The notes beneath the pieces were generated by a model. It searched no databases and had not been told where the DNA came from. It was given only the letters and a program-made list of their open reading frames with translations. A stretch of DNA of 64,000 nt from Thauera sp. JM12B12 (GTDB lineage Bacteria; Pseudomonadota; Gammaproteobacteria; Burkholderiales; Rhodocyclaceae). The DNA is taken from NCBI RefSeq assembly GCF_039614725.1, contig NZ_CP154859.1, forward strand, positions 2,356,001 to 2,420,000. Reading direction: 5' to 3'. Below are positions 5,368 through 29,836 of this stretch, one piece after another. Position numbers and translations under genes: made by a program. The number at the start of each line of letters is the position of its first letter. Positions within the stretch are counted from its first letter, which is position 1.

Positions 5368-5388
5368 GTCATTCAGATAGGTGATGCG
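5368..5388 (+). promoter_or_regulatory. Candidate regulon operator, upstream of the Mo hydroxylase operon
   Basis: GTCATTCA (5368-5375), six bases, then TGATGCG (5382-5388). The same two blocks with the same 6-base gap occur before coxG (29756), and near matches occur before the DUF1302 gene, xdhC and the AraC gene. Here the site ends 77 bp before the start codon at 5466. The AraC-type protein at 25893 is the likely binder (inference). Confidence 0.55.
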
Positions 5389-5465
5389 CCACACCTGCGC
5401 CCGCCGTATCGTCCCTCTCACGCAAGCCCGGTGCCCCAAGCTGGCGCCGCGACAAGGATGAAGTC

Positions 5466-6344
5466 ATGAAACCGGCACCCTTCGACTACCATGCTCCCGC
5501 CACCCTTGACGAGGCGGTCGGGCTGCTCGCCCGCCTCGACGACGAGGGTTGCGACATGAAGATCATCGCCGGCGGGCAGAGCCTGATGCCGATGCTGGCG
5601 CTACGGGTGGCGCGGCCCGAGGCGCTGGTCGATCTGCGCCGACTGCGCGAAATCGACTACATCCGCAGGACGGACGACGGCGCCCTGCTGATCGGGGCGA
5701 TGGCGACCAAGCAGGCCGCGGCCAACTCGCCTCTAGTCAAGGGCACTCAGCCCCTGTTCCAGGCGGCCACGGAGCTGGTCGGCCACCGCCAGATCCGCAA
5801 CCGCGGCTCCGTCGGCGGCTCCTTCGCCCACGCCGACCCAGCCTCGGAGTACCCCGCCGTGGCGCTGGTGCTCGACACCGAGTTCGACGTGATCGGACCC
5901 GACGGTCCGCGCAGGATCCCGGCGGCGGACTTCTTCGTCACCTATATGACCACTGCGCTTGAACCCACCGAGATCCTCACCGCGGTGCGCTTCGCGCCGT
6001 TCCCGTCCGGACGCCGCTGGGCGATCCAGGAGTTCGCGCGGCGCAACGGCGACCTCGCGCTCGCCGGCGTGGCGGTCACCCTCGATGTCGAGGACGGCCT
6101 GTGCCACGACGTGCGCATCGCCGCCTTCGGCGTCGAGGCGACCGCGGTCCGCCTGACTGCGGCCGAGCAGATGCTCGAAGGCCGCCCCGCGCAGCGCATC
6201 GCCTTCGAGGACGCGGGCAAGGCCGCCGCTACGACGCTCGACGATCCGATGAGCTGCATCCATGCCTCATCCGACTACCGCCGCCATCTGGTCGGCGTCC
6301 TCACCGCACGCGCGCTCGGCGAAGCCGCCGCACGCGAGCACTGA
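5466..6344 (+). CDS. Molybdenum hydroxylase, FAD-binding medium subunit
   Basis: 292-residue CoxM/XdhB-type subunit. It binds FAD and passes electrons from the 2Fe-2S subunit to an acceptor. The FAD motifs AGGQSLMPMLALR (near residue 36) and RNRGSVGGSFAHADPASE (near residue 113) are clear. It lacks the cysteine-rich insertion that binds a 4Fe-4S cluster in 4-hydroxybenzoyl-CoA reductase HcrB, so it more likely serves a hydroxylase than a ring reductase. It is the first gene of the three-gene set 5466-9326 and has its own upstream region with a candidate operator at 5368. Confidence 0.92.
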   Translation: MKPAPFDYHAPATLDEAVGLLARLDDEGCDMKIIAGGQSLMPMLALRVARPEALVDLRRLREIDYIRRTDDGALLIGAMATKQAAANSPLVKGTQPLFQAATELVGHRQIRNRGSVGGSFAHADPASEYPAVALVLDTEFDVIGPDGPRRIPAADFFVTYMTTALEPTEILTAVRFAPFPSGRRWAIQEFARRNGDLALAGVAVTLDVEDGLCHDVRIAAFGVEATAVRLTAAEQMLEGRPAQRIAFEDAGKAAATTLDDPMSCIHASSDYRRHLVGVLTARALGEAAAREH

Positions 6345-6367
6345 CCAACCGATCCTGGGAGGCACAC

Positions 6368-6862
6368 ATGGCGAGCAATCAGCGCATCGAAGTCCGGGTT
6401 AACGACATCACATACGTCCGTGAGGTGGAGCCCCGCCTGACGCTCGCCGATTTCCTCCGCCACGAGCTCCACCTCGGCGGCACCCATGTCGGCTGCGAGC
6501 ACGGCATCTGCGGCGCGTGCACGGTCCTGATCGACGGGCACAGCGCACGCGCCTGCCTCACGCTGGCGGTACAGGCCGACGGCAGCGAGGTGACCACGGT
6601 CGAAAGCCTGCGCGACCGCGACAGCGGCGCCCTTCACCCGATCCAGCAGGCCTTCGTGGATGGTCACGGATTGCAGTGCGGCTTCTGCACGCCCGGTTTC
6701 ATGATGACCACGCTCGAGCTGCTGCGTGAGGTCCCGGATCCGAGCGACGAGCAGATCAAGGAAGCCCTCGGCGGCAACCTCTGCCGCTGCACCGGCTATC
6801 AGTCGATCCTCGAGTCGGTGAAGCTCGCCGCCCGGCGCATGAACTCGAACGCCCCTGCCTGA
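6368..6862 (+). CDS. Molybdenum hydroxylase, 2Fe-2S small subunit
   Basis: 164 residues carrying both 2Fe-2S clusters of the xanthine dehydrogenase family. The plant-ferredoxin-type motif is CEHGICGACTVLIDG followed by a fourth Cys (near residues 41-62). The second cluster motifs are CGFCTPGF and CRCTGY (near residues 103-140). The start is the ATG at 6368, preceded by GGGAGG at 6357-6362. It lies 23 bp after the FAD subunit and 46 bp before the Mo subunit, in the usual medium-small-large order of CO dehydrogenase-like enzymes. The protein passes electrons from the Mo site to FAD. Confidence 0.95.
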   Translation: MASNQRIEVRVNDITYVREVEPRLTLADFLRHELHLGGTHVGCEHGICGACTVLIDGHSARACLTLAVQADGSEVTTVESLRDRDSGALHPIQQAFVDGHGLQCGFCTPGFMMTTLELLREVPDPSDEQIKEALGGNLCRCTGYQSILESVKLAARRMNSNAPA

Positions 6863-6908
6863 GCACTGCACGCTCGGGGCGCACGCAAACCAGCATAGCG
6901 ACAAGACC

Positions 6909-9326
6909 ATGGCAATCGAAATTCCCACCCTGCCGGACCAGCTGCCGAACGATGCCCCGCGCTATGTCGGCAAAGCCGTCAATCGCGTCGAGGATCCCGC
7001 TCTGGTGTCGGGCACCGTCCAGTTCATCGACAACCTCTCCCTGCCCGGCATGCTGCACTGCGCGATCCTGCGCAGCCCGCATCCCCATGCCCGCATCCTG
7101 TCGGTCAGGGTGGACGCCGCGCGTGCCGCCGAAGGCGTCGCCGCGGTGCTCACCGGCGCGGACGTGCGGCGCTGGACCAATCCCTGCTTCACCGCCCCGG
7201 AAGGCTGGGGCAACTACTGCATGGCGGTGGACAAGGTACGTTTCGTCGGCGAGCCGGTCGTGGCGATCGCGGCGAGCAGCCGCTACCTGGCCGAGGACGC
7301 GCTCGAGCTGGTGGAAATCGAATACGAGCCGCTGACGCCGGTCGCCAACCCCGAGCAGGCGATGGCGCCCGGCGCGCCGCTGGTCTTCGAGGATCACGGC
7401 ACCAACGTCATGTTGAGCCGGACCTACACCTGGGGCGATCTCGATCGCGTGTTCGCCGAGGCCGACCGCGTGGTGAGCCGGCGCTTCCGCTGGAACCGCG
7501 TGGGCGCGAACCCCACCGAGACCTTCGGCTGCATCTGCCAGTGGGATCTCGCCGACAACAGCCTCACCTGCCACGGCGCCTACCAGACCCCCCGCTTCAT
7601 GGCCATCGGCCGCGCCGCATCGCTGAACCTGCCGGCCAACCGCATCCGCATCGTCACCCACCCGCAGGGCGGCGGCTTCGGCGGCAAGGGCGGACCGCGC
7701 GGCACCGACATTGCCGCCCTGCTCTCGCGCAAGGCGCAGGGACGGCCGGTCAAGTACATCGAGGACCGCATGGAATACCTGCTCGCCGGCGGCGGGCAGT
7801 CCTGGGACCGCTACTACGACGCCGCGCTCGCGGTGAAGGCCGACGGCACGGTGACCGGCTTCCGCGTGCGCCTGGTGGACGACCAGGGCGCCGGCGCCGA
7901 GGGCTACGGCACGATCTCCGCGGCGAAACCCCTGGCGGCCTTCACCGGCAACTACCGCATCGAGGCGGCCGGCTACGACCTGACGCTGGTGGCAACCAAC
8001 CGCGCACCGACCTACCCTTACCGCGGCTACGGGCCGCCGCCGCACAACCTGGTGCTCGAGTCGCTGATGGACTGCACCGCGCGCGAGCTGGGCATCGACC
8101 CGGCCGAGCTGCGCCGGCGCAACTACATCCGGCCGGAACAGTTTCCGTACACCGTGCCCAGCGGCAACGAATACGACAGCGGCGACTACGAGGCGGTGCT
8201 GGATCGCGTCCTCGATCTGGCCGACTACAAGGCCCTGCGTGAGCGCCAGGCCGCAGCCCGCGCCGAGGGCAGGCTGGTCGGTATCGGCGTGGTCAATACC
8301 GTCGAGCCCGGCGTGTTCGACTGGAACGCCTATGCCACCGTCGGCGTCCCCGGCGTCGGCGTGCCCGAAGGCGTGAAGGTCGCGGTCGATCTGTTCGGCA
8401 ACGTGACCGTGGCCGTGGGCTTCAGCCTCCAGGGACAGGGACAGTTCACCGTCGCCGCGCAGGTCGCCGCCGACTACTTCGGCATCGACATCGCGCAGGT
8501 CCGCATCGCGAATACGCCCTCGGACGTGGCCCTGCCCCACTTCGGCCAGGGCGGCAGTCGCCTGGGCGTTGCCGTCACCGGCGCGGTCCTGGGCGCCTGC
8601 GAAAAGCTGCGGGCGACCCTGTGCAGGGTGGCCGCGCACGTGATGCAGGCGCCCGCCGAGGCCGTGACCCTGCGCAACGGCCGCCTGCACCGCATCGACG
8701 CGCCCGAACATTCGATGTCGCTGGCCGAGATCGCCGGCCTGATGCTGTCGCGCACCGACCTGCTGCCGGCAGGCGTCGAGCCCTGCCCGGAAGCGACCTA
8801 CGTATGGGCCTCGCCCAACCGCAACGCGCCGGACGACCAGGGCCGCTGCCGCAGCTACCTCACCGCGGCCAACGCCACGCACATCGCGCTCATCGAGATC
8901 GACCGCGACACCGGCCGCACCCACATCCTCGACTACACCATCGTCGACGACTGCGGCACCCGCCTCAACCCGGCCAACGTCGAGGGCCAGCTGCAGGGCG
9001 GCGTCGCCCAGGGCATCGGCGCGGCCTTGTACGAGGAGTATGTGTACGACGCCGACTGCCAGCCGCTGGTGAGCACCTTCGTCGACTACCTGATCCCGAC
9101 CATCCATGAAGTCCCGATGACGCGCAAGGATCACCTGGTCACACCCTCACCGGTCGCACCGCTGGGCGCGAAGGGCTGTGGCGAGGGCGCGATCCACACC
9201 ACGCCGGCGACCATCCTGTGCGCCATCAACGACGCCCTCGCGCCGCTGGGCAAGGAACTGCTCGAGACACCGGCCTCGCCCCACCGCCTGTGGAAGCTGC
9301 TGCGTGACGAGGCCCGCCGCATTTGA
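6909..9326 (+). CDS. Molybdenum hydroxylase, large molybdopterin subunit
   Basis: 805 residues of the CoxL/XdhA type, carrying molybdopterin cytosine dinucleotide. Family features are the QGGGFGGKGG loop (near residue 254), FSLQGQGQFTVAAQVAADYF (near residue 505), and a C-terminal GAKGCGEGAIHTTPA with the glutamate expected at the Mo site. The CO dehydrogenase signature loop with its Cu-binding Cys is absent, replaced by YPYRGYGPPPHN, so this is not a CO dehydrogenase. It probably hydroxylates a ring or allylic carbon with water as oxygen source. The substrate is unknown. XdhC (27163) and CoxG (29837) are its likely maturation and anchoring factors. Confidence 0.93.
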   Translation: MAIEIPTLPDQLPNDAPRYVGKAVNRVEDPALVSGTVQFIDNLSLPGMLHCAILRSPHPHARILSVRVDAARAAEGVAAVLTGADVRRWTNPCFTAPEGWGNYCMAVDKVRFVGEPVVAIAASSRYLAEDALELVEIEYEPLTPVANPEQAMAPGAPLVFEDHGTNVMLSRTYTWGDLDRVFAEADRVVSRRFRWNRVGANPTETFGCICQWDLADNSLTCHGAYQTPRFMAIGRAASLNLPANRIRIVTHPQGGGFGGKGGPRGTDIAALLSRKAQGRPVKYIEDRMEYLLAGGGQSWDRYYDAALAVKADGTVTGFRVRLVDDQGAGAEGYGTISAAKPLAAFTGNYRIEAAGYDLTLVATNRAPTYPYRGYGPPPHNLVLESLMDCTARELGIDPAELRRRNYIRPEQFPYTVPSGNEYDSGDYEAVLDRVLDLADYKALRERQAAARAEGRLVGIGVVNTVEPGVFDWNAYATVGVPGVGVPEGVKVAVDLFGNVTVAVGFSLQGQGQFTVAAQVAADYFGIDIAQVRIANTPSDVALPHFGQGGSRLGVAVTGAVLGACEKLRATLCRVAAHVMQAPAEAVTLRNGRLHRIDAPEHSMSLAEIAGLMLSRTDLLPAGVEPCPEATYVWASPNRNAPDDQGRCRSYLTAANATHIALIEIDRDTGRTHILDYTIVDDCGTRLNPANVEGQLQGGVAQGIGAALYEEYVYDADCQPLVSTFVDYLIPTIHEVPMTRKDHLVTPSPVAPLGAKGCGEGAIHTTPATILCAINDALAPLGKELLETPASPHRLWKLLRDEARRI

Positions 9327-9396
9327 TTCGAACCGCGCCCGCGGCCCTTGCGTGCCGCGGGATGCCGCGGTCACCCGCCAGACGAGGATTTCCGAA

Positions 9397-10671: not shown

Positions 10672-10723
10672 GCAAGACGGTGTGCAGGCACGGCCCTGCC
10701 CGCCCCCGCACAGCCGATCGATC

Positions 10724-14485: not shown

Positions 14486-14911
14486 TCAATCCCCGGATCG
14501 CCTGAAGCAAGGCAACCAGACGTCATCACTCACCTGTGTCATGGCAAGCTCCACCGGCATGCCGATCTCCAGCGCCGCTGGCGCGCAGTCGATCACCCGC
14601 GTGAGCAGGCGCACGCCCTCGTCGAGTTCGACGATCACCGGCGCATACGGCGCATCGGCGGCGAATGCCGGGTGCAGGGGACGCACCACCTCTGTCCATG
14701 AGAACACCTTGCCACGTCCGCTCGAACGGGCCCACACCCAATTGGGTGAACCGCAGTGCGCGCACAGTTCGCGTGGCACGTGGCGGTGGCGCCCGCAGTC
14801 CTCGCAGCACTGGAAGCGCAGCTCTCCAAGGGCGCACCAGCGATAGAACTCCCCCGTGAGGCCGGTCCGGGCTGGAAGCGGTTTGCCGTAGTCGGCGCTT
14901 GCTGCGTTCAT
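14486..14911 (-). CDS. DUF35 Zn-ribbon/OB-fold protein, partner of the thiolase-like protein
   Basis: 141 residues from the ATG at 14911 with GGAGGAGAGG upstream. The N-terminal rubredoxin-like Zn ribbon is CCEDCGRHRHVPRELCAHCG (near residues 35-54), followed by an OB fold (GKVFSWTEVVRPLHPAF onward). Such proteins bind acyl-CoA and pair with thiolase-fold enzymes; ChsH2-DUF35 with the aldolase Ltp2 in steroid side-chain degradation is the known example. It starts 25 bp after the thiolase-like gene, so a two-subunit complex is likely. Confidence 0.88.
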   Translation of the reverse strand: MNAASADYGKPLPARTGLTGEFYRWCALGELRFQCCEDCGRHRHVPRELCAHCGSPNWVWARSSGRGKVFSWTEVVRPLHPAFAADAPYAPVIVELDEGVRLLTRVIDCAPAALEIGMPVELAMTQVSDDVWLPCFRRSGD

Positions 14912-14936
14912 GTCGTGCCTCTCCTCCATTTCAGGC

Positions 14937-16100
14937 TCAGCGCCGCAGGATGGCGATGCTGCCATCGCCGAAATCGCCCCAGCCGGTAACCACGCCGATC
15001 TCGGCACCCGCCACCTGGCGGGCATCGGCCGCGCCCCGCAACTGACGCACCGCCTCGACGACGTGGCTGATGCCCAGCACATGGGCCTGGGACAACAGCC
15101 CCCCGTGGGTGTTGACGGGCAGGCGCCCGCCGAGCTCGATGCCGCCGTCGGCAACGAAGCCACCGCCTTCGCCGCGCTTGCAGAAGCCGGCCTCCTCGAG
15201 CTGCTGGATCACTTCGAAGGTGAAGCAGTCGTAGATCTGCGCGAAGTCGACGTCTTCAGGCTTGACTTCAGCCATGCGAAAGGCCTCCGGCGCAGCGGTG
15301 GTGAGCCCGATGCGATGGAAGTCCGGGCGGCCGCAGATCTCGTCGGCCGGATAGGGCTGGCTCGCCGCAGCGCCCATGATGAATACCGGGCGCTGGCGGA
15401 GGTCGCGCGCACGCTCGGCGCTGGTCACGATGAAGGCGGCGGCGCCGTCGGTCTCGAGGCTGCAGTCGAACAGGCGGTAGGGCGACGAGATCATCGGCGA
15501 GTCCAGGTACTGCGCCATGTCCAACGGCTTGCCGTGCATCAGCGCGGCCGGGTTGAGCTGGGCGTGGCGGCGCATCGCGATCGCCACCGCACCCAGCTGT
15601 TCCTCGGTGGTGCCGAACTCGTGCATGTGCCGGCGCGCCATCAACGCATACCACTGCGGCGGCGCGGTCAGCCCGAAGGGCAGGTAGAAGTCGCGCGCGA
15701 TCGCGCCGCCCGGAATGGAGTCGACATCGTTGGCAGCCGTCTCGCGCACCCGGGCACCCGAGTAGCCGTTCCAGCCGCCCGGCACCAGCACGTGCTCGGC
15801 CACCCCGGTGGCGACCGCCATCGCTGCCGCACGCAGCGAGGCGACCGGCGCCGCGCCCCCCATGTGCAGGGTCGCGGCAAAGCGCAGGTTGGTGCAGCCG
15901 AGCTCGGCGGCGAAGGCCTCTGCCTTGCCGACGTTGGGGAACGGCATGATGCCGTCGATGTCCGCCGGCTTCAGGCCGGCATCCTCGATCGCCGCCATCG
16001 CCGCCTTGAGCTGGATGCCCATCTCCGACAGTCCGGAGCCCGGTTTGCGGCAGAAGGGGGTTTCGCCGATCCCGACGATGCAGGCCTTGTCGCGCAGCAT
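14937..16100 (-). CDS. Thiolase-fold protein lacking the catalytic cysteines (Ltp2/SCP-x-like)
   Basis: 387 residues with the thiolase fold. It has an IVGIGETPFCRKPG start, an AAIEDAGLKPADIDGI helix, DGAAAFIV (near residue 218), QIYDCFTFEVIQQLEEAGF (residues 288-306), and NTHGGLLSQAHVLG (residues 330-343). Where thiolases have the nucleophilic Cys, residues 78-90 read LHMGGAAPVASLR. The C-terminal Cys of thiolases is replaced in VTGWGDFGDG. The family His (H340) is kept. A Claisen-type thiolysis is therefore unlikely. With the adjacent DUF35 gene it resembles the steroid retro-aldolase Ltp2, so a retro-aldol C-C cleavage of a beta-hydroxyacyl-CoA is my preferred reading. Confidence 0.85.
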   Translation of the reverse strand: MLRDKACIVGIGETPFCRKPGSGLSEMGIQLKAAMAAIEDAGLKPADIDGIMPFPNVGKAEAFAAELGCTNLRFAATLHMGGAAPVASLRAAAMAVATGVAEHVLVPGGWNGYSGARVRETAANDVDSIPGGAIARDFYLPFGLTAPPQWYALMARRHMHEFGTTEEQLGAVAIAMRRHAQLNPAALMHGKPLDMAQYLDSPMISSPYRLFDCSLETDGAAAFIVTSAERARDLRQRPVFIMGAAASQPYPADEICGRPDFHRIGLTTAAPEAFRMAEVKPEDVDFAQIYDCFTFEVIQQLEEAGFCKRGEGGGFVADGGIELGGRLPVNTHGGLLSQAHVLGISHVVEAVRQLRGAADARQVAGAEIGVVTGWGDFGDGSIAILRR

Positions 16101-16103
16101 GGC

Positions 16104-17033: not shown

Positions 17034-17086
17034 CGCTCGTCCGTCCTCGCTGTTGTCCCCGATCCCCGCCCGCGCACAAACCGTGC

Positions 17087-18295: not shown

Positions 18296-18316
18296 GTCAG
18301 CCTCCTTTGCTTGCCG

Positions 18317-19498
18317 TCATGCCACCACGCCTGCGCGTCGGCAGGCATGGACGGCGTCTTCCGAATAGCCGAGCAGATCGCGCAGGATCTGTGACGAGTG
18401 CTGGCCGATGCAGGGTGCGAGCGCATCGAGGCGCGCGCTGCCTTCGCTCAGGAAGATCGGGAATCCGAGGCTCTTCACCGCACCGAAGCTGGGGTGCTCG
18501 AGCTCGAGGATGTAGCGGTTCGCCAGCGCCTGCGGATCGGAGGCCGGGTAGTCGAAACGCTCGATGACATCGGCCGACATCTGCTTCTCCATGAACACCT
18601 GGCGCCAGTGCGCACCGGGGCGTGTCGCGAAGGCGGCCTCGAGCGCGTGGATGAGCGCGATCCGGTTCGTCTCGGTGCGCTTGTCATGGGTGTCGAAGCG
18701 CGGATCGTCCGCGGCGATGCCGACCGCCGCCGAGAACATCGGCCACCAGCGGTCGGTGTCGGGCATGGTGAGCGTGACCCAGCGCCCGTCGGCGCTCGGA
18801 TACAGGGCGCCCGACATCGGGTTGGAGACGTCCAGGCGCGAGATCGGGTTGAGCAGGCGGTCGCCCTTGCCGATGGCGAGGAAGGCCTGGATGTCGAGCG
18901 CCGCGCCGTACATGTTGGCGCCGAACAGCGACACATCCACCGCTTGCCCCTCGCCGGAATCGATGCGGTGCAACAGCGCCGTGACCACCCCGAAGGCGAG
19001 CATCGCGCTCGAGTGCATGGCCCCCGCACCGGTATAGACCGGCGGCTGTCCGGGCTGCGGCAGGATCGGCATCATCCCGGTGCGTGCGGCGGCCAGCTCG
19101 TCGATTGCCGGCAGCGTGCTGTCCGGGCCGACCGGCCCGAAACCCGACAGGCGCCCGAACACGATGTCCGGGCGCAGGGCGCAGGCCCCGGCGTAGTCGA
19201 TGCCGAGCGCCTCCAGCTCGATCACGCGCCAGTCCGTCACCACGACATCGGCCTTCGCCACCAGCTCGCGCAGCACGCTGACACCCTGATCGCCGCCCAG
19301 ATCCAGCGCGATGCTCTCCTTGTTGCGATGGATGAGATCGGCTTCGCAATTCCAGCCATCGGCCTCGCGCACGCCTGGCGCGAGGCGCTCGACGCGAACG
19401 ACGCGTGCGCCGAAGTCGGCCAGGAAGGCCGCGCTCAGCGAAGCGCAGAACAGTCTTGTGAGGTCGATCACGACCACGTCTTCGAGCGGACGACTCAT
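18317..19498 (-). CDS. Class III CoA-transferase homologue lacking the catalytic Asp
   Basis: 393 residues from the ATG at 19498, preceded by GAGGAGAAC. It has the family N-terminus (VVVIDLTRLFCASLSAAFLA) and small domain, but the residue at the catalytic aspartate position is Ala160 in TGAGAMHSSAM, judged by a constant 22-residue spacing to the following Gly turn in its paralogues. It is the first gene of the long leftward operon and is followed by the Asp-containing partner at 17087. A structural or substrate-binding subunit of a heteromeric transferase is likely. Confidence 0.87.
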   Translation of the reverse strand: MSRPLEDVVVIDLTRLFCASLSAAFLADFGARVVRVERLAPGVREADGWNCEADLIHRNKESIALDLGGDQGVSVLRELVAKADVVVTDWRVIELEALGIDYAGACALRPDIVFGRLSGFGPVGPDSTLPAIDELAAARTGMMPILPQPGQPPVYTGAGAMHSSAMLAFGVVTALLHRIDSGEGQAVDVSLFGANMYGAALDIQAFLAIGKGDRLLNPISRLDVSNPMSGALYPSADGRWVTLTMPDTDRWWPMFSAAVGIAADDPRFDTHDKRTETNRIALIHALEAAFATRPGAHWRQVFMEKQMSADVIERFDYPASDPQALANRYILELEHPSFGAVKSLGFPIFLSEGSARLDALAPCIGQHSSQILRDLLGYSEDAVHACRRAGVVA

Positions 19499-19818
19499 CT
19501 CGTTCTCCTCGTTCGGTTCAGAACATTCAGGCCACTGCCACTGGCTCGCGGCATCGGGACTGAGCCGGCCTCCGTGAGGTCGGTACGAGTGCCACGACCC
19601 ACGCACAGCCTGCGATGTTGGAAACGAGTTTAGTCATCCGTCGCCGGCGAACAGGCTCGGGATTGGCTCAATTGCGGCCGTTGGAACGTCAAAAACGGCC
19701 GCTCCGGAGAATCATCCAAACGGGTGATGATGGCCTGGTCACGACCTGACAGGCTCACATCTGCGGCGCGCTGTCCGCATCACGCATGTACCGGACGACA
19801 ACACCAAAGAGGAACGAC
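19499..19818. other. Divergent control region between the leftward operon and the outer-membrane genes
   Basis: This 320-bp gene-free stretch separates the leftward operon (first ATG at 19498) from the DUF1302 gene (ATG at 19819). It must hold two promoters back to back. The only specific element I see is the operator-like site at 19711-19731, oriented toward the DUF1302 gene. I could not assign -35 and -10 boxes with confidence. Confidence 0.5.
19711..19731 (+). promoter_or_regulatory. Candidate regulon operator before the DUF1302 gene
   Basis: ATCATCCA (6 of 8 matches to GTCATTCA), six bases, then TGATGAT (5 of 7 to TGATGCG). The spacing and orientation match the sites at 5368 and 29756. 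It ends 87 bp before the start codon at 19819. It is the weakest match in its second block. Confidence 0.4.
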
Positions 19819-21501
19819 ATGAGCACCGGAAAGAGGGAAAGGAGACCCGGCAGGCAAGCAGCACACAGCCTGACCCCCATCGCACTTGCGCTTGGCCTGA
19901 TCACGGCCACGACCGCACACGCGGGACCCACCATTCACCTTGGCGACGACACCACCTTGGCTTACTCGCTGACGCTTTCGCACACGCTTTCCAGCCGCCT
20001 GGGCAAGCCGGCACGCGAGTATCTGGCCGACCTGAACTATGACGACGGGACACGCAATTTCGACCGTGGCAGCCTCATCACCAACCGCACGAACGTGCTC
20101 GGCGAGCTGCGCCTGCGCCACGACAACCTGGGCGCGATGCTGCGCGCGAGCACCTTCTATGACCACGCCTATCGCGGCAGCAACGACAACGACTCGCCCG
20201 GCACCGTCAACAAGATCGGCCCGCATGACGAATTCACCGCCATCACCCGCCGCGACAGCGGCCGCTCGTCACGCATCCTCGACGCCTACGTGTATGGCAA
20301 CTGGGCGGTGGGCGAGGAGCAGTACCTTTCGCTGAAGGCCGGCCGCCATGTGCTGGCCTGGGGCGAGAGCCTGTTCTGGCCCAACATCAGCCAGGGTCAG
20401 GCGCCGCTCGACGCCACGGTGTTCAACGTGCCGGGCACCGAGGCCAAGGAAGGCTACCTGCCGGTGGGCCAGCTGTCGGCTTCGTTCACGCTCAACGACC
20501 AGGTCACGCTGACCGGCTTCTATCAGTACGAGTGGGAGAAGACCCGGCTGAACCCGGTGGGCGACTACTTCGGCTCGGACTTCTTCGGCCCGGGCGCGGA
20601 GTTCTTCCGCCTCGCACCCGGAGTCATCAGTGCGCTGCCCGACAACAGCTTCGCCGTCGCCAACTTCGCCGGCGAGATCGATCCGCGCGACTCCGGCCAG
20701 TGGGGCCTCGGCACCCGCTTCCAGGTCAGCGAGGCCACCGAACTCGGCCTCTATCACTACCGCTACCACGACCGCGTGGGCGCGATGTTCTTCGACTTCA
20801 GCGGTGATACCACCTACTCGTCCTTCGACCGCTTCGCGCGCCAGGCCTCGCCCGGCAGCGTGCCCTACTACAAGCTCGCCTACTTCGACGACATCAAGCT
20901 CACCGGCATCAGCCTGAGTTCGAAGGTCGGCGACGCGGTGCAGTGGGCGGCCGAGTTGAGCTACCGCGAGGACGCTCCGGTCTACGTGATGACCCCGCTC
21001 GGCCCGGCACCCGCACGCGGCAGCTACTTCCAGGGCAACCTGAACGCACTCTACATCCTCGGCCCGTCGAAGATCGCCCACCAGACCACGCTGATGGGCG
21101 AGATCGTGCACCAGCGCATCCAGAGCGTGGACGACCTGGCGATCAGCAGCGGCGGTTTCGATCTGGGCCGCTTCGACGACTACACCTACAAGACCGCCAC
21201 CGGTGAGCAGACTCGCGGCTCCACCCTCGTCGGCCTGGGCGCGATCTTCGACTATCCCGCGGTGTTCTCCGGCTGGGATCTGTCCACCAAGGCGATCTGG
21301 ACGCAGAACGTCGCCGGCAGCGCCTACAGCGGCATGGGACGTGACGAGAAGCGCCTGACCCTGGGCGCCGACTTCAAGTACCTCGGCAACTTCACCATCG
21401 GCCTGACCTACGTCGGCTACCTCGGCTCGCCCAGCGTCGCCAATGGCCGCAACCTGGCCGACCGCGACTATGTCTCGCTGAGTGCCAAATACACCTTCTG
21501 A
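19819..21501 (+). CDS. DUF1302 outer-membrane beta-barrel protein
   Basis: 560 residues from the ATG at 19819 (AGAGGAACGAC upstream). A signal peptide spans about residues 1-36 (PIALALGLITATTAHAG). The mature part has alternating polar/aromatic strands, the AGRHVLAWGESLFWPN block typical of DUF1302, and the terminal aromatic residue (YTF) of outer-membrane barrels. DUF1302 proteins accompany degradation of steroids and other hydrophobic compounds and are thought to help them cross the outer membrane. It is followed 29 bp later by its usual partner, a DUF1329 protein. Confidence 0.9.
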   Translation: MSTGKRERRPGRQAAHSLTPIALALGLITATTAHAGPTIHLGDDTTLAYSLTLSHTLSSRLGKPAREYLADLNYDDGTRNFDRGSLITNRTNVLGELRLRHDNLGAMLRASTFYDHAYRGSNDNDSPGTVNKIGPHDEFTAITRRDSGRSSRILDAYVYGNWAVGEEQYLSLKAGRHVLAWGESLFWPNISQGQAPLDATVFNVPGTEAKEGYLPVGQLSASFTLNDQVTLTGFYQYEWEKTRLNPVGDYFGSDFFGPGAEFFRLAPGVISALPDNSFAVANFAGEIDPRDSGQWGLGTRFQVSEATELGLYHYRYHDRVGAMFFDFSGDTTYSSFDRFARQASPGSVPYYKLAYFDDIKLTGISLSSKVGDAVQWAAELSYREDAPVYVMTPLGPAPARGSYFQGNLNALYILGPSKIAHQTTLMGEIVHQRIQSVDDLAISSGGFDLGRFDDYTYKTATGEQTRGSTLVGLGAIFDYPAVFSGWDLSTKAIWTQNVAGSAYSGMGRDEKRLTLGADFKYLGNFTIGLTYVGYLGSPSVANGRNLADRDYVSLSAKYTF

Positions 21502-21530
21502 TCGTTGTGCAACGAACCAAGGAATCGAAC

Positions 21531-22910
21531 ATGAAACCCAGACTCATTGGCCTGGCGGTCGCCGCGGCACTCGCCCTGCCCTTTGCCGCCGGTACCGCGC
21601 ACGCCAAGGCGACGGCGGACGAGATCGCCCGCCTCGGCAAGGATACAAACTGCATCGGCGCCGACAAGGCCGGCAACGCCGACGGCAGCATTCCGGCGTG
21701 GAGCGGCAAGTGGCTCGGCGTGCCCCCGCAGGTCGACTTCAAGGGCACGGGCAACCACCCGATCGACCCTTACGCCGGCGAGAAACCACTTTTCGAGATC
21801 ACAGCGGCGAACTTGCCGCAATATGCCGCGCGCCTGACCGACGGCCAGAAGGCCCTGTTTGCGAAGTACCCGGACACCTTCCGCATGCTGATCTACCCGA
21901 CGCACCGGGACTTCCGTTACCCCGACGCGGTGTGCGAGGCCACCAAGCGCAACGCAGAGGAGGCCGAGCTGCTCGACGACGGCATGGGCGTGCATGCCTA
22001 TACCAACGGCGTCATGTTCCCGTTCCCGAAGAGCGGCCTCGAGCTGCTGTGGAACATCACCGTCCCCTACCGCGCCTACACCGAGGAGCTGATCTCGGAC
22101 AACGCCTACGTGATCGCCAACGGCAGCATCAACTGGGGGCGGGTCAAGTCGCGCAACATGGGTCCCAGCCACAAGCCCGGAATGATCGAGCCGGTCGGTG
22201 AGCGCGCCGCCTCCTGGTATCTCAACGAAACCCTGCTGCCCGAGCGTGACCGCGGCGAGATCAACACCGGCGTCGAGTTCTACAACTATGGCAAGCAGCC
22301 GCGTCAGAGCTGGCGCTACGATCCCGGTACCCGCCGCGTGCGACAGTCGCCGGGCTACGGCTTCGACATGTCCTTCCCGGGCACTGGCGGCTCGATCACG
22401 GTCGACGAGGTGCGGATCTGGAACGGATCGCCCGAGCGTTACGACTGGAACATCCTCGGCAAGCGCGAGCTCTACATCCCCTTCCACGCCTACCGCGTCC
22501 ATTCGCCGGACATCAAGTATTCCGAGCTGCTGATGAAGGGGCACGCGAACCCGGAGTACATGCGCTATGAACTGCGCAGGGTTTGGGTGCTGGAGGGCAA
22601 GCTGAAGGAGGGCTTCCGTCACCTTTACGGCAAACGTGTGATGTACATCGATGCGGACACGATGTTCCCGATCATGGCTGACAACTACGACGCTCGCGGC
22701 GAGATGTGGCGCACCTCGATGCTCAACCACTTCTATGCCTATGAGATGAACACCTGGCAGGCCGGCGCAGGCTTCTACCACGACCTCAATGCCGGCACCT
22801 ATCTGGGCTTCAATCTCATCAATGAACAGCCGAACGCCTACCGCCTGAACGAGAACAAGGTCAGCGAGCGCGATTTCGGTCCCGAGGCGGCGCGTCGTAT
22901 CGGACAGTAA
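21531..22910 (+). CDS. DUF1329 outer-membrane-associated lipid-binding protein
   Basis: 459 residues with a cleavable signal (LIGLAVAAALALPFAAGTAHA). The mature part begins KATADEIARLGKD and contains NADGSIPAWSGKW, both typical of DUF1329 proteins, which are related in fold to LolB/LppX-like lipid carriers. With the DUF1302 protein it probably forms a system for handling a hydrophobic substrate or lipid at the outer membrane. The last block (NEQPNAYRLNENKVSERDFG) is also typical. It is followed by a strong terminator at 22960. Confidence 0.9.
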   Translation: MKPRLIGLAVAAALALPFAAGTAHAKATADEIARLGKDTNCIGADKAGNADGSIPAWSGKWLGVPPQVDFKGTGNHPIDPYAGEKPLFEITAANLPQYAARLTDGQKALFAKYPDTFRMLIYPTHRDFRYPDAVCEATKRNAEEAELLDDGMGVHAYTNGVMFPFPKSGLELLWNITVPYRAYTEELISDNAYVIANGSINWGRVKSRNMGPSHKPGMIEPVGERAASWYLNETLLPERDRGEINTGVEFYNYGKQPRQSWRYDPGTRRVRQSPGYGFDMSFPGTGGSITVDEVRIWNGSPERYDWNILGKRELYIPFHAYRVHSPDIKYSELLMKGHANPEYMRYELRRVWVLEGKLKEGFRHLYGKRVMYIDADTMFPIMADNYDARGEMWRTSMLNHFYAYEMNTWQAGAGFYHDLNAGTYLGFNLINEQPNAYRLNENKVSERDFGPEAARRIGQ

Positions 22911-22959
22911 AGCTCCACGCCCCCGGCGCCGCTCCGGGGGCCACCGGCTCTCCCTCCTG

Positions 22960-22994
22960 CCTGCGTCCGTCCTTCGGGACACGCAGGTTTTTTT
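22960..22994 (+). terminator. Rho-independent terminator after the DUF1302-DUF1329 operon
   Basis: CCTGCGT (22960-22966) pairs with ACGCAGG (22981-22987), and inside it GTCC pairs with GGAC around a TTCG loop. Seven T follow (22988-22994). It lies 50 bp after the DUF1329 stop codon. Confidence 0.85.
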
Positions 22995-23080
22995 CTGCCG
23001 CGGCGCCGCCTCGCGCCGCATGACAGCGCGCCCGGACACGTCCTCCTGCACCGGCTCCCGCCGCGCGCGCAGCACCTCGC

Positions 23081-23119
23081 AAAAGGACGAAGGGCCACCG
23101 CAAACGGTGGCCCTTCGTC
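23081..23119 (-). terminator. Terminator of the leftward flavoprotein gene
   Basis: A perfect 15-bp stem runs 23086-23100 and 23105-23119 with a 4-base loop. On the minus strand it is followed by a short T run (AAAA at 23081-23084 on the plus strand). It lies 33 bp beyond the stop of the 23152-25149 gene. Confidence 0.75.
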
Positions 23120-23151
23120 ATCCTTCCGGTCGACGCGCTCGCGCGCGCCGC

Positions 23152-25149: not shown

Positions 25150-25210
25150 GAATGTCTCCTCCGGTTTAACCGGCACGGAAGACGACGCCTCCGTGCCCCC
25201 AGGCCAGCTC

Positions 25211-25729
25211 TCAAGCGGGTCCGGTCGGAGTCAGGATCACAATCCCGAAAGGCCGGTCGGTCTGCGACTGGAAATAGCCCCAGGTCGGGAAAAGTGCATT
25301 CAGCCGCGGCCAGAGCACGTCACGCTCTTCCTGGGTCGCATCGTGAGCCGTCGCCGTCATGCGCTTCCGATCGCATTGCACCCAGCATTCCGGATTAGCC
25401 TTCACGTTGAGATACCAGGCCGGAGGCTCGTCGTAACCGGCCAGCGACGCGACAACGACCATGTTCTCGCCGTCCTGCAGGAAAACCAGCGGGGTGGTCC
25501 GCTTCTCTCCGGATTTGCGACCGATCATGGTGAGCAGCAAGGTGGGCAGACCAGACGGCGAGCCCTCACCGGTCGACCACCCATCCGGGTTGGCGAGATA
25601 GCGCTCGACATCGGCTTTCGCATCTCCGCGTATACGATCCAGCGAGGCCGTTGCCCCCTTCAGCCCCTCCCAATCCGCGTCGGACATGAAGTCCGGCTTC
25701 ACCATCTTTTCCCGATCGTGCGTTGACAT
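25211..25729 (-). CDS. Ddn-family (DUF385) deazaflavin-type nitroreductase/quinone reductase
   Basis: 172 residues of the split-barrel family TIGR00026/DUF385. Family features are LPTLLLTMIGRKSGEKRTTPL near residue 64, ENMVVVASLAGYDEPPAWYLN near residue 88, and a C-terminal WPRLNALFPTWGYFQSQT. Characterised members (Mycobacterium Ddn) use the deazaflavin F420. F420 is uncommon in betaproteobacteria, so either the organism makes it or this member uses another flavin. It lies between the OYE-type gene and the AraC regulator on the same strand, 61 bp before the former. Confidence 0.82.
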   Translation of the reverse strand: MSTHDREKMVKPDFMSDADWEGLKGATASLDRIRGDAKADVERYLANPDGWSTGEGSPSGLPTLLLTMIGRKSGEKRTTPLVFLQDGENMVVVASLAGYDEPPAWYLNVKANPECWVQCDRKRMTATAHDATQEERDVLWPRLNALFPTWGYFQSQTDRPFGIVILTPTGPA

Positions 25730-25892
25730 GATTCCGCTCTCCAGCCAGTTTCAATAAAGAATGACCCCAGCGCTCAGTCTAGTGAAGCGGATTCGCCCCC
25801 CTCCCGAAGCCGGAATTTCGGATGCGGCCTTTGCGATGCCAATTCGGGACACCCTTCGGAGGTCGCAGACACAGCTCCGGAAATCCGGCAAA

Positions 25893-26897
25893 TCAGGTTT
25901 CCAGCCCGCGCACGTCCGATAGCGTCCTGCCTGTCCAGCCCTTGAATGCCCGCCTGAAGTTGCTGACGCTGCTGTAGCCAAGCAGGAAACCGATTTCCTT
26001 GGGCGTGAGCATGGTGTGTTTCAGATACTGGACGGCAAGATCCTGGCGGGTCTGGTCGAGGATCTGCTGGTAGCTCATGTCTTCCTCGACGAGGCGGCGG
26101 CGCAGTGTGCGTGCCCCCATCTTCAGTTGCCGGGCCATCTCGTCGAGGGTCGGGAAATTGCCTGGATTGTTCATGAGGTAGTTGCGAATCGATTCCGCAA
26201 GCACCGTCTTGTCCCGATTCTTGGCGGCGAGCAGTTCGCAGTTGCGTGCGCACAGCTTGAACACCTCCTCGTTGGCGAGGCTGATCGGATCCTGCAGGCG
26301 GTTGATGTCGAAAACGACCACGTTCCGCGGCTGATTGAAGTAGATGGGGCAATTGAAGCGCCGAACGTAGCGCGAGATGTCGGCCGGCTGCGGATAGGTC
26401 AGGTGGAGTTCCAGCACCGGGAAGGGGCGGTTCGTCAGCGACGAGGCAAGCTCGATGGTCTGACTGACGAATTCCTCGATCCCAAAGCGGAGCACATCGG
26501 TCATGCGGTGAACGTCCTGAATCTCGGAGAACCACCGCCCGTTGGCGATGTAGTTCCTCGAGGCGAAAATATGCTGCTCATTCAAGTCACGATAGCGGTC
26601 ATAAAGTTCGCGCGACGCCTTCAGAGTCGGCGCACTGAGCGCGGCATAGCCGAGGATGCCCAGATCGCTGATCTTGAACTCCTGCCCGAGGCTGATTCCC
26701 AGATGCGGATCACCGGTGAGCGCGAGCATGTTGAGGATGATCTGGCGATACTGGGGCGGCCTCGGGCGACCGTGCGGATCATCCAGGCGATCGGCCTTCA
26801 GTCCGGTGCCTTCAAGCACCTGCTCGGCAGTGAACCCGCGGTATTGCATGCGCTCGAGATAGAAATCGATCTTGCTCTTGGGCTTCAGGTCTTTCAT
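25893..26897 (-). CDS. AraC-family transcriptional regulator (OruR-like)
   Basis: 334 residues from the ATG at 26897 with GGAGGGG upstream. The N-terminal ~200 residues look like the arabinose-binding-like domain of the OruR group. The C-terminal double helix-turn-helix spans about residues 235-330 (FPTLDEMARQLKMGARTLRR and PKEIGFLLGYSSVSNFRRAF). It is divergent from xdhC, and two operator-like sites lie in the shared region, one facing each gene. It is the best candidate for the regulator of the whole catabolic region, probably sensing a pathway compound (inference). Confidence 0.9.
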   Translation of the reverse strand: MKDLKPKSKIDFYLERMQYRGFTAEQVLEGTGLKADRLDDPHGRPRPPQYRQIILNMLALTGDPHLGISLGQEFKISDLGILGYAALSAPTLKASRELYDRYRDLNEQHIFASRNYIANGRWFSEIQDVHRMTDVLRFGIEEFVSQTIELASSLTNRPFPVLELHLTYPQPADISRYVRRFNCPIYFNQPRNVVVFDINRLQDPISLANEEVFKLCARNCELLAAKNRDKTVLAESIRNYLMNNPGNFPTLDEMARQLKMGARTLRRRLVEEDMSYQQILDQTRQDLAVQYLKHTMLTPKEIGFLLGYSSVSNFRRAFKGWTGRTLSDVRGLET

Positions 26898-26981
26898 GTT
26901 CCCCTCCGGCAGACGACTGCAGGACCATCACCCGACCGTCCGCGTCGATGTGGCCGCATTTGATCAAACCCGGGCGGACGC

Positions 26982-27002
26982 CGCATCACCTGATCGAGTT
27001 AA
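26982..27002 (-). promoter_or_regulatory. Candidate operator before the AraC gene (autoregulation)
   Basis: On the minus strand it reads TTAACTCG, six bases, TGATGCG. The ten bases AGGTGATGCG are identical to those at 5379-5388 and 27101-27110. The site lies 85 bp before the AraC start codon and points toward it. The first block is only a 4 of 8 match. Confidence 0.45.
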
Positions 27003-27089
27003 ATTCCCCCGCGGCCTGTTGGGATTCATTCACGGACCCGATCCAGCGCGAAGTTCGGAATCTGTGGCCGCCCCTTCGCGCACCCGCTG

Positions 27090-27110
27090 TTAATGCATAG
27101 AGGTGATGCG
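27090..27110 (+). promoter_or_regulatory. Candidate operator before xdhC
   Basis: TTAATGCA (27090-27097; 5 of 8 to GTCATTCA), six bases, TGATGCG (27104-27110). It is oriented toward xdhC, 53 bp before its start codon, and faces away from the second copy at 26982. Confidence 0.45.
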
Positions 27111-27162
27111 GCCGATCGCCGGCGTGTGCGAGAGTGGGGCTCCACACGCGGGGTGAACGAAC

Positions 27163-28359
27163 ATGAACGAGCGCCAGCTGATCACGAACGCCTTTGACGA
27201 TGCGCGCGGCCAAGGCGAAGCCGTCGCGCTCGCCAGCGTGGTTGCAGTCCGCGGCTCGACCTACCGCCGTCCCGGCGCACGCATGCTGATCACCGAGACC
27301 GGTCGGCGGACGGGGCAGGTGAGCGGCGGCTGCCTCGAGCGCGACGTGACCCGACAGGCGAGCAAGGTCCTCACCCGCGGCATGCCCGCCCTGAGGCTTT
27401 ACGATTCGCTGGACGAGGACCTCGCCGAAGGTTTCGCGCTCGGCTGTAACGGTGCGGTGCTCGTCCTGATCGAGCCCGCCAACGAGAATGTCCTGCACCT
27501 GATGCGTGTCCAGCGAGCCTGCCTCGCCCACCGCCGCCGTGGAGCGATCGCCACCGTGTATGCGTGCCAGGACGGAGCGAACGCACAACTCGGCGCGCGC
27601 GTGTCGATGATCGAGGGCGAGACGCCCCAAAGTTCCGGGATCGCATCGGATCGGCTCGCCGCTGCGCTCGGCAGCGCCGTTGCGCAGGCCCTCGAGCGAG
27701 GTTACGGCGGAGACTGGTCCGAACAGACCGGTCACGGCAACATCTCGGCCTTCATCGAGGTCTTCACGCCGCCGCTTCAGGTCTTGATATTCGGGGCCGG
27801 CCAAGACGTGGTGCCGCTGGTTTCCTTCGGCAATGCGCTCGGCTGGCGCATGCAGGTGGTTGCTGCCACCGGCGGGTTCGGTGTGCGCGAGCAATTCGTC
27901 GCGGCGGACGCCGTCCATATCGGCTCGGCACGTGACGCGGTGGCCACCCTGCACCCCAATGGCGACAGCGTCGTTCTGTTGATGTCGCACAACTTTTTGC
28001 GCGACGTCGAGGCGTTTTGCGCACTGGCGCCGGTTCGGCCGCGCTTTTTCGGGATGCTCGGGCCGCAGCACCGCGCCCAGCGCCTGATCGAGGAAGCGGC
28101 GGCACGTGGAACGCGCATCGATGATGCGATGCGGGACAGCATCTTCGGCCCAGTCGGGCTGGACATCGGCGCCGAGACTCCCGCGGAGGTCGCACTGGCC
28201 ATCAGCGCCGAGATCCAGGCCCTGATGCAGGGTCGTCATGGCGGACATGCCCGCCTGCGCAATGGACCGCTGCACACCGACGTCCTCACCCGAGGGGCGG
28301 ACGCCCGTGCGCTCGAAGGCCAGCCCAGCCTGCGCCTCTGCAAGCTCGAGCCGGTCTGA
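27163..28359 (+). CDS. XdhC/CoxI-family molybdenum cofactor maturation protein
   Basis: 398 residues in the two-domain XdhC layout. The N-terminal XdhC-CoxI domain carries GSTYRRPGARML and QVSGGCLERDV (near residues 28-60), and ALGCNGAVLVLIEP near residue 90. The C-terminal Rossmann domain starts near residue 205 (VLIFGAGQDVVPLVSF). XdhC proteins bind molybdenum cofactor, promote its sulfuration and insert it into hydroxylases. The only such hydroxylase in the window is at 5466-9326, about 18 kb away, and both genes share an upstream operator-like site, which supports a functional link. Confidence 0.9.
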   Translation: MNERQLITNAFDDARGQGEAVALASVVAVRGSTYRRPGARMLITETGRRTGQVSGGCLERDVTRQASKVLTRGMPALRLYDSLDEDLAEGFALGCNGAVLVLIEPANENVLHLMRVQRACLAHRRRGAIATVYACQDGANAQLGARVSMIEGETPQSSGIASDRLAAALGSAVAQALERGYGGDWSEQTGHGNISAFIEVFTPPLQVLIFGAGQDVVPLVSFGNALGWRMQVVAATGGFGVREQFVAADAVHIGSARDAVATLHPNGDSVVLLMSHNFLRDVEAFCALAPVRPRFFGMLGPQHRAQRLIEEAAARGTRIDDAMRDSIFGPVGLDIGAETPAEVALAISAEIQALMQGRHGGHARLRNGPLHTDVLTRGADARALEGQPSLRLCKLEPV

Positions 28360-28377
28360 CCGGCCCGGGCTCACAAC

Positions 28378-29250
28378 TCAGTCCATTCGGCCGATGACCT
28401 CGTCGCCAAAGCGACGAATGGCATCGAGTTGGGCGAGCTTGTCGTTGGGACCGCATTTCATATCCCACGGGACCAGTCCGGCGTGTGTCAGGCCAAGGTC
28501 GCGCAGGCGGCGGAAATCGTCCAGCGTCCTCGCACTGAAATCGATACCGTGGATCTCGTAGTCAGTCCGATCGAGCGATCCATACTCGGCACGGAAGCCA
28601 TTGAGCTGCGAAACCAGCGATCTCAGGGTTTCAACGTCGGTATTCGCCGAGGCCCAGCCGTCACCGAGGCGCGCGGCGCGACGGAGCGCCGGCTTGCTGT
28701 GCCCGCCGATCAGGATCGGCACCGGGTGCTCGGGTACAGGGCGCATGCGCAGCGGACCGAACTCGAAATGCCTGCCGTGATACTCGAAAAAATCGCCGCC
28801 CATGGCAGCACGCAGGATCTCGATGCACTCGTCCATGATCTCGCCACGCTTGTCGAAGTTGACCCCGTTGTAGACGAAATCCTCCTTCCAGGGGCTGAGG
28901 CCTGCACCCAGGCTGATCCGTCCGCCCGACATCACCGCAAGAGAGGTAAGCGACTTGGCCAGGATGAGGGGTTGACGGACCGGGACCTTGAGCACCCCCG
29001 GATAGAAACGCAGGCGCGTGGTGACCGCCGCCATGGATGCCATCGCCACGAACGGTTCGATGAACTCCGACTGCTCCAGGTAGCCACGGATCGCTTCCGT
29101 GTCCGCATACGGATAGTCGGATTCGGTCGCCTTGGGGTAGAACAGGCTGTCGGGCATGGAAAGGCTATCCCATCCCGCCCTTTCGGCCTCGCGGGCAATA
29201 TCCATGTAGTGGCGATAGCTGGCGAAGCCGAGCTGAAGGACGAATTTCAT
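28378..29250 (-). CDS. LLM-class flavin-dependent oxidoreductase
   Basis: 290 residues from the ATG at 29250 with GGGAGC upstream. Luciferase-like features are LAVMSGGRISLGAGLSPWKED (near residue 104), EYHGRHFEFGP (near residue 157), and PVPILIGGHSKPALRRAARLGDGW (near residue 177). It is a distant paralogue of the protein at 2848. Cofactor (FMN or F420) and reaction are unknown. It is convergent with xdhC, 18 bp apart, and appears monocistronic. Confidence 0.87.
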   Translation of the reverse strand: MKFVLQLGFASYRHYMDIAREAERAGWDSLSMPDSLFYPKATESDYPYADTEAIRGYLEQSEFIEPFVAMASMAAVTTRLRFYPGVLKVPVRQPLILAKSLTSLAVMSGGRISLGAGLSPWKEDFVYNGVNFDKRGEIMDECIEILRAAMGGDFFEYHGRHFEFGPLRMRPVPEHPVPILIGGHSKPALRRAARLGDGWASANTDVETLRSLVSQLNGFRAEYGSLDRTDYEIHGIDFSARTLDDFRRLRDLGLTHAGLVPWDMKCGPNDKLAQLDAIRRFGDEVIGRMD

Positions 29251-29836
29251 CGGAATGCTCCCTTGGTGATGGCGGTGCGGCTTCGGTGTGGCATCTTCAA
29301 TGCACACTCTGCCCGTTCAGCCTCGATAAATGTTCCATGCGAGAAGCCACAAGCGGTCATGTCGGGGTTGCCGTAGCCCCGATGCACAGACGATTCTGCG
29401 CAGTCCCGGGCCCGCGGGCATCACCAATAGGGATTAGGCATGCGCCTAGCGCTGAAAATGGGCCACCAGCTAGGCTACAACCGATTCCGGCTCGTCATGG
29501 CGAAGGTTTGTGTCCGCTATCAGCCACCTTGGCTACGCTTGCGCGCTCGAAGGAGGCGAGCCGGCCGAGATACTCCGGCTCGCACACTCCAAACTGCGCG
29601 CTCGGGGCGAGCGCCTCTTCAATGCAGCCGATTTGCGTCCCGAGCGCCGTGCCCGACCAGCATCACAGGACGGTGCGGCGCATAGTACCGTTCGAGAGCA
29701 GGGCATCGGCACATGAGCCATGCGCCGAATCCTCGCGCCCGCTGAAACGTGTTCCGTCATTCATCTGAATGATGCGGATCACCCCCCCCCTCCGTTAACG
29801 TGCTCCCGACACTGATTTGAGGAAGAGGAGGTCACC
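29251..29836. other. 586-bp gene-free region before coxG
   Basis: Short open frames here show no family resemblance and no ribosome binding site. The region must hold the leftward promoter for the LLM gene and the rightward promoter for coxG. It contains an operator-like site at 29756-29776 and a run of nine C at 29782-29790 between that site and the coxG start. I see no RNA gene or repeat in the remainder. Confidence 0.5.
29756..29776 (+). promoter_or_regulatory. Candidate regulon operator before coxG
   Basis: GTCATTCA (29756-29763), six bases, TGATGCG (29770-29776): both blocks identical to the site at 5368 before the Mo hydroxylase genes. It ends 60 bp before the coxG start codon. Confidence 0.55.

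Follow-up and report, generated by a model that had tools for sequence, protein, structure and literature searches.

The stretch of Thauera sp. JM12B12 analysed here (positions 2,356,001 to 2,420,000 of contig NZ_CP154859.1, called the window at its full length of 64,000 nucleotides and providing the scale for all coordinates) raises the question whether catabolic genes scattered along it are controlled through one common element and, if so, which pathway they serve and which protein reads the element. An earlier note on this DNA had proposed that a shared operator of 21 base pairs (bp) unites a molybdenum hydroxylase, an XdhC protein, a CoxG protein, a porin and an AraC regulator in a scattered regulon, and this link is supported both by the rarity of the site and by its conservation. 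The reading that we favour, and consider rather probable, is that the 21-bp site serves as operator for a cluster-specific activator of the anaerobic steroid (2,3-seco) pathway, an activator that is probably the AraC protein, responding to steroids.

Sites of the 21-bp operator and their rarity

The sites follow the consensus (G/T)T(A/C)A(T/C)nC(A/G)-N5-(G/A)TGATGCG. Operator 1 (GTCATTCAGATAGGTGATGCG, 5368-5388, plus strand) is located upstream of the atcABC (molybdenum hydroxylase) operon with a -10-like hexamer TATCGT at 5407-5412, and operator 5 (GTCATTCATCTGAATGATGCG, 29756-29776, plus strand), which contains a perfect 7+2+7 palindrome, is located upstream of coxG with TAACGT at 29796-29801 and a spacing of 19 bp; that these two share the exact form GTCATTCA-N6-TGATGCG was borne out by a pattern search. 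The three degenerate copies were all found where they had been placed, namely operator 2 (ATCATCCAAACGGGTGATGAT, 19711-19731, plus strand) upstream of DUF1302/DUF1329 with CAGGCT at 19750-19755, operator 3 (TTAACTCGATCAGGTGATGCG, 26982-27002, minus strand) upstream of araC with TCAAAT at 26958-26963, and operator 4 (TTAATGCATAGAGGTGATGCG, 27090-27110, plus strand) upstream of xdhC with CGAGAG or GAGAGT at a spacing of 18-19 bp. All five are oriented toward the downstream gene, the 10-mer AGGTGATGCG is exact at three of them (0.18 expected), and the distance to the start codon was measured as 52-84 bases, close to the 53-88 bp that had been claimed.

The original list of five sites is real throughout but had overlooked a sixth. 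When a profile of the site and the -10 block, trained on 36 sequences from relatives without the window, was scanned over the window in both orientations, the six best-scoring places were the five reported sites and 29417-29437 on the minus strand (operator 6, CTAATCCCTATTGGTGATGCC, with CAGAAT at 29393-29398). This site lies 109 bases before a luciferase-like gene (28378-29307) and scored 24.3, compared with a maximum of 15.2 among 342,740 null positions. The place ranked seventh (17.5) is the palindromic operator 5 again, read from its other strand. An eighth place at 14730-14750 on the minus strand (16.1, slightly above the null maximum) is a palindromic, site-like sequence, TTCACCCAATTGGGTGTGGGC, within a coding region.

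Within the window alone, the consensus with at most three mismatches was found four times with 1.77 expected, and 8 of 100 shuffles reached four, which is not significant. A number this close to chance speaks for a mere resemblance between unrelated promoters, and the case therefore had to rest on data from outside the window. Given the genome-wide rarity of the motif and its conservation, seen both with a profile built on just the five window sites and with one built on just the relatives, we regard such a chance resemblance as practically negligible.

In the genome of 4,171,389 bases the exact pattern has two matches, both of which are reported sites (5368 and 29756). The degenerate pattern TMAYNCRNNNNNRTGATGCG, with which 199 genomes of the family were searched, was written after the relatives had been seen and is hence not fully independent, the two profiles being the less circular tests. 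Its four matches in the own genome are all reported sites of the cluster, and the four in G193, the closest atc-carrying genome of the same genus, are all at orthologous positions. The remaining 197 genomes gave 116 matches in total, about 0.6 each (hand count of the listed places). Four matches each were also found in G044, G129 and G074, two of those in G044 being regulon sites and the others scattered, and two of the four zero-mismatch places in T. terpenica (G202) are on other contigs. Allowing one mismatch raised the count for the own genome to 22, versus four for a reversed-pattern control, and one additional match of this kind in the window lies inside the xdhC coding region. The genome scan that the earlier note had set as a test of its proposal consequently showed a motif that is rare genome-wide and not frequent in unrelated coding sequence.

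Conservation in relatives and promoter geometry

Relatives with an AraC protein 72-100% identical to that of the window were grouped as clade A, which contains Thauera-type members (G193, two metagenome-assembled genomes, T. butanivorans and T. terpenica) and Aromatoleum/Azoarcus members; among the loci, L040 is T. terpenica, L039 is T. butanivorans, L043 is Azoarcus sp. Aa7 and L022 is the record from G193. A total of 42 upstream regions including the window's five were aligned, belonging to araC (11), xdhC (10), coxM, which encodes the FAD subunit and stands first in the atc operon (11), coxG (5) and DUF1302 (5). Left out of this set were L042 (the same record as L025), coxG of G199, and five Aromatoleum/Azoarcus coxG regions and DUF1302 of L023, in which no site had been noticed. 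A loose pattern served for the first picking of the site in each region, and since several relatives are closely akin (36 unique sites) the counts are not independent events.

Using profiles from which one promoter class at a time was left out, the best forward match was the picked site in 41 of the 42 regions, the exception being xdhC of L040. The 4182 control pieces were taken from these loci after masking of the picked sites. With the profile of the five window sites, 31 of the 37 regions from relatives scored above every control, the six that failed being araC of L025, xdhC of L025, L040 and L041, coxM of L080 and DUF1302 of L040. With the left-out rows added, 32 of 44 clade-A regions were above all controls; here coxG of G199 passed, and DUF1302 of L023 (Aromatoleum-type G044), which has no site within 250 bp and a look-alike 339 bp upstream, scored below the controls.

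Taken operator by operator, all 11 readable clade-A atc promoters (own included) carry the first, and the second occurs in four Thauera-type relatives (L021, L038, L039 and L040, weak in L040). Operator 3 is kept with at most two mismatches in the 10 clade-A relatives examined, giving 11 araC promoters with the window, and operator 4 in all nine clade-A relatives where xdhC lies beside araC (weak in L025 and L040). Operator 5 is found in five Thauera-type relatives (L022, L038, L039, L040 and L100), the T. terpenica coxG promoter (L040:6320-6430, minus strand) carrying two tandem copies 24 bp apart. For operator 6 there is an orthologous site in G193 (L022:8639, minus strand), and no separate copy was seen by eye before the luciferase-like gene of L038-L040. 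Between the window and Aromatoleum/Azoarcus, 12-18 of the 21 bases of the site are kept and 1-8 of the 18-base spacer behind it, and the class-weighted information is 1.32 bits per column in the site, 0.15 upstream, 0.12 in the spacer and 0.75 in the -10 block. As judged from these sequence comparisons, the shared site is real and not a product of chance. Conservation upstream of orthologues, likewise set earlier as a test, holds for the closer relatives and fails for genomes whose AraC protein is 62-67% identical (0 of 14 promoters).

A second conserved block, which was not used in choosing the sites, occupies bases 19-24 after TGATGCG and reads TAnnnT in the 42 aligned promoters. This -10-like block at 18-bp spacing has A at the second base in 32 and T at the last base in 38 of them, and the window's coxG and xdhC promoters fit it better with one extra base. 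Given that the -10 box stands at a near-fixed 18 bp behind the site, the site covers the -35 position, and no consensus -35 box was visible by eye in the aligned promoters. A site on the -35 position without a consensus -35 box is the layout of class II activators, and the predicted operator geometry is of this type, with a fixed distance and orientation to the predicted -10 box. The near-fixed distance would also be seen if TGATGCG were no more than the -35 box recognized by an alternative sigma factor. This is very unlikely, as conservation continues for 13-14 bases ahead of TGATGCG, farther than a -35 box would extend, and the -10 box has the usual TAnnnT form.

Comparison of the left and right halves of the site gave on average 4.0 of 7 matching positions as a direct repeat and 4.3 of 7 as an inverted repeat, the inverted pairing differing between promoter classes (coxG 6.2, DUF1302 5.0, araC 4.2 and xdhC 2.7 of 7). 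The high pairing at coxG and DUF1302, and the perfect palindrome at the window's coxG, would fit a dimeric repressor of the TetR, GntR or MarR type that reads TCAYYCA-N2-TGRRTGA and blocks the -35 position until an inducer arrives. We consider such a repressor improbable, because palindromic pairing is poor at the xdhC and araC sites, each of the six window sites has TGATGCG on the side facing the gene, the 42 aligned sites all keep GATG but have a degenerate left arm, and no repressor gene was found among the tested open reading frames (ORFs) of the first 41 kb, a subset of the ORFs there having been tested against Pfam.

The predicted AtcABC enzyme and the candidate reader

The operon behind operator 1 is composed of genes for a FAD subunit of an AtcABC-type hydratase/dehydrogenase (5466-6344, plus strand; Pfam FAD_binding_5 and CO_deh_flav_C), the 2Fe-2S subunit (6341-6862, plus strand; Pfam Fer2 and Fer2_2 in ORF 6101-6862, and NCBIfam) and the molybdopterin subunit atcA of the 1-testosterone hydratase/dehydrogenase type (6909-9326, plus strand), the last assigned from the atcA primers and its relatives. 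Degenerate atcA primers with an expected product of about 1100-1200 bp are given in the available part of PMC5554518. Both match the window without mismatch, at 7011-7033 and 8157-8183, and yield an in silico product of 1173 bp (7011-8183). Because both published primers match exactly, the hydroxylase, which had been recognized as an enzyme but without its pathway, is a predicted AtcABC, the enzyme that serves as marker for anaerobic steroid degradation by the 2,3-seco pathway. Among the best 120 of 6649 relatives, AtcA is 88% identical to that of T. terpenica 58Eu, 79% to Denitratisoma sp. DHT3 and 70% to D. oestradiolicum, and the named relatives there belong to T. terpenica, Aromatoleum, Denitratisoma, Sterolibacterium and Steroidobacteraceae, and also to Rubrivivax and Halieaceae. 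A KshA_C domain is encoded about 142 kb from atcA, and such a domain was present in nine of the 10 genomes searched.

T. terpenica and T. butanivorans are named as atcABC carriers, and testosterone induces atcABC in Thauera sp. GDN1 (PMC9980454, text available in part). The bile-acid cluster of Azoarcus sp. Aa7 holds AtcABC homologues (PMC8399759, likewise in part), and a bile-acid product may therefore act as inducer, just as an androgen may.

The araC gene (25893-26897, minus strand) encodes an AraC/XylS-family regulator with an Arabinose_bd N-terminal domain (PF12625, E 1.1e-34) and the C-terminal helix-turn-helix domain of the family (PF12833, E 2.2e-15). Among the ORFs tested in the first 41 kb no second DNA-binding regulator was found, and the promoter of araC itself carries the site. 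An orthologue of at least 60% identity is present in 11 of 12 atcA genomes (the exception, G131, is 88% complete) and in none of 187 others; at E 1e-100 the own genome was the only one of 399 in the order with a match. The site is present in all 11 readable atc promoters that go with a 72-100% identical AraC and in none of six that go with a 62-67% identical one. The protein missed the NCBIfam cut-offs of QhpR (147.4 of 250 bits), GliR (128.9 of 570) and CypR (124.9 of 500). We have moderate confidence in AraC as the best candidate reader of the 21-bp site. Its earlier nomination is favoured by its being the sole regulator found, by the site of its own gene and by co-occurrence, and is weakened by the missing motif in genomes with a 62-67% identical AraC and by the existence of a second operator.

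Several observations weigh against the AraC-read activator. In the seven atcA genomes with a 62-67% identical AraC, none of eight araC promoters and none of six readable atc promoters has the site, the best score in these 14 promoters being 8.5 compared with 18.8 for the highest control, and the second helix-turn-helix (SSVSNFRRAFK) of these orthologues is unchanged. None of the five Aromatoleum/Azoarcus coxG regions scored above the controls, and no site stands before coxG in these records. A partly palindromic site is unusual for an AraC-type protein, and the partial palindromy is seen at coxG and DUF1302 but not at xdhC. The sites, their conservation and rarity, the near-fixed -10 spacing and the atcA primer match are observed in the sequences, and activation, the AraC protein as reader and the inducer are what we infer from them. 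Finally, the second operator described below could be the AraC site.

Of the genomes with a 62-67% identical AraC, G083, G129 and G114 have its gene near the atc genes; in the other assemblies the two are separated. The motif was not found in these Denitratisoma-type and other relatives, apart from a partial look-alike in L081 (CATCGGACGATGCC, seen by eye and uncounted). Five of the six atc promoters instead share a different box, AATGA..ATAGnCC..GATCnGATT, whose occurrences in the scanned loci are confined to the region before the FAD-subunit gene, apart from a single additional one in L030. The atc promoters of L029, L032, L033, L084 and L088-L091 lack the operator and share a conserved box of a different kind, which lies some 150-200 bp ahead of the gene for the FAD subunit. 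The different box suggests regulatory rewiring in these relatives.

The second operator (19668-19700, between the CoA-transferase operon on the minus strand and DUF1302 on the plus strand) is a direct repeat, TCAATTGCGGCC / TCAAAAACGGCC, with a period of 21 bp. It occurs without mismatch at one place in each of the six Thauera-type atc genomes searched and with one mismatch at one place in four Aromatoleum/Azoarcus genomes; its position before the CoA-transferase genes was checked in the window, G193, G200, G201 and G202, and by coordinates in G192. Weaker scattered matches (1-2 mismatches) were found in G129, G048, G169, G201, G202 and G203, with one more in G044, and it was not found in G205, G083, G139 and G103. 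A single half-site copy overlaps the -10 box of the Thauera araC promoter (26952-26963, minus strand). A period of 21 bp is typical of AraC proteins and fits their dimers. The 21-bp site might accordingly be an activating operator read by a regulator encoded elsewhere, with AraC reading the repeat TCAAnTGCGGCC at 19668-19700 and the single copy on its own -10 box. The conservation of the repeat speaks for this, as does the half-site GTCCACATTTG, seen by eye in opposite orientation before araC in L031 and L034 (in L035 with one mismatch), which are relatives without the 21-bp site. On the other hand, the double repeat is present at one promoter with half a copy at araC, it was not seen by eye before the Aromatoleum/Azoarcus araC genes, it is lacking in G205, which has the 21-bp site, and the tested ORFs of the first 41 kb contain no other DNA-binding regulator. 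We regard this alternative as unlikely, albeit the most serious one.

In the mechanism proposed for the AraC-read activator, the operator would serve six genes or operons (atcABC, DUF1302-DUF1329, araC, xdhC, coxG and the luciferase-like oxidoreductase gene), the TGATGCG half covering the -35 position and a -10 box of the sigma-70 type following after about 18 bp. The promoters would be weak unaided, and the bound activator, most likely the AraC-family protein, would recruit RNA polymerase by class II activation. It would respond to a steroid, androgen or bile-acid derived, or to an early degradation product, and would also activate its own gene.

Neighbouring genes and known systems

The regulon is predicted to join AtcABC to an XdhC-type molybdenum cofactor maturation factor (27163-28359, plus strand; PF02625 and PF13478), CoxG (29837-30475, plus strand; PF06240), a DUF1302 protein (19786-21501, plus strand; PF06980), which had been labelled porin-like, a DUF1329 protein (21507-22910, plus strand; PF07044), the luciferase-like oxidoreductase of the LLM class (28378-29307, minus strand; TIGR03619) and araC. 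Among the neighbours are genes for an OYE-family protein, ChsH2-like and thiolase-like proteins and several CoA-transferases and ECH proteins, and by predicted function they fit steroid catabolism. For the OYE-family protein the best mycofactocin OYE model scored 449 versus a cut-off of 793 bits, and BaiCD 311 versus 825. Plus-strand ORFs at 14910-19633 were rejected because they run antisense to thiolase, ECH and CoA-transferase genes that form an operon on the minus strand. The DUF1302/PF07044 genes are not steroid-specific, since according to the available part of PMC6449761 they are also found in the aromatic operons of other betaproteobacteria, and its authors describe the PF07044 product as an exporter.

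Two further features of the region were observed. The LLM-class oxidoreductase, F420-dependent by name, occurs together with F420H2_quin_red-family proteins (25211-25729) in a betaproteobacterial steroid cluster. Adjoining the steroid cluster, at 41456-49433, are a response regulator ORF (from 41456), a sensor kinase resembling TorS beside it, and a molybdopterin oxidoreductase.

The ability of denitrifying bacteria to degrade steroids without oxygen is relevant to the removal of hormones in sludge and sediment. Thauera sp. GDN1 given to mice lowered serum androgen, and the mechanisms and transporters of steroid uptake are described as unclear (PMC9980454, in the available part). With a defined operator and a single candidate sensor, questions of regulation and uptake become testable, and the pair could yield a part for a steroid-responsive biosensor.

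A literature search covering titles and the starts of abstracts, mostly outside subscription papers, found no regulator or operator of atcABC or of the 2,3-seco pathway, and a word search found no AraC in PMC9980454, PMC6208644 and PMC5554518. In the accessible portions of two reviews, the section on the anaerobic pathway (section 13) names no regulator and the aerobic part describes TesR/TeiR and KstR (PMC6678751, from 2019), and regulation in bile-acid-degrading Proteobacteria is called largely unknown (PMC8399759, from 2021). AraC-family class II regulons are well known as such; this predicted one, on the 2,3-seco pathway, appears to be new for the pathway.

The known AtcABC enzymes of Thauera sp. 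GDN1 and Azoarcus sp. Aa7 are, like that of the window, three-subunit molybdoenzymes of the xanthine oxidase family, and the primers match. The available parts of published accounts of the atc pathway describe no regulator or operator, whereas the window cluster has a predicted operator and a candidate regulator. TeiR/TesR and HsdR of Comamonas and KstR/KstR2 of actinobacteria likewise exert pathway-specific control of steroid catabolism; they are, however, LuxR-, LysR- and TetR-type regulators of the aerobic pathway, and the ORFs tested in the first 41 kb include no gene of this sort (PMC6678751 and PMC8399759, as far as accessible).

Within its own family, the window's AraC protein is none of QhpR, GliR and CypR, given scores far below their cut-offs. 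The textbook AraC operator is a pair of direct repeats, whereas here there is one partly palindromic 21-bp site per promoter. With these three class II activators of the AraC/XylS family, its best NCBIfam matches, the predicted system shares the domain layout of the protein, a site on the -35 position and a regulator gene with a site of its own.

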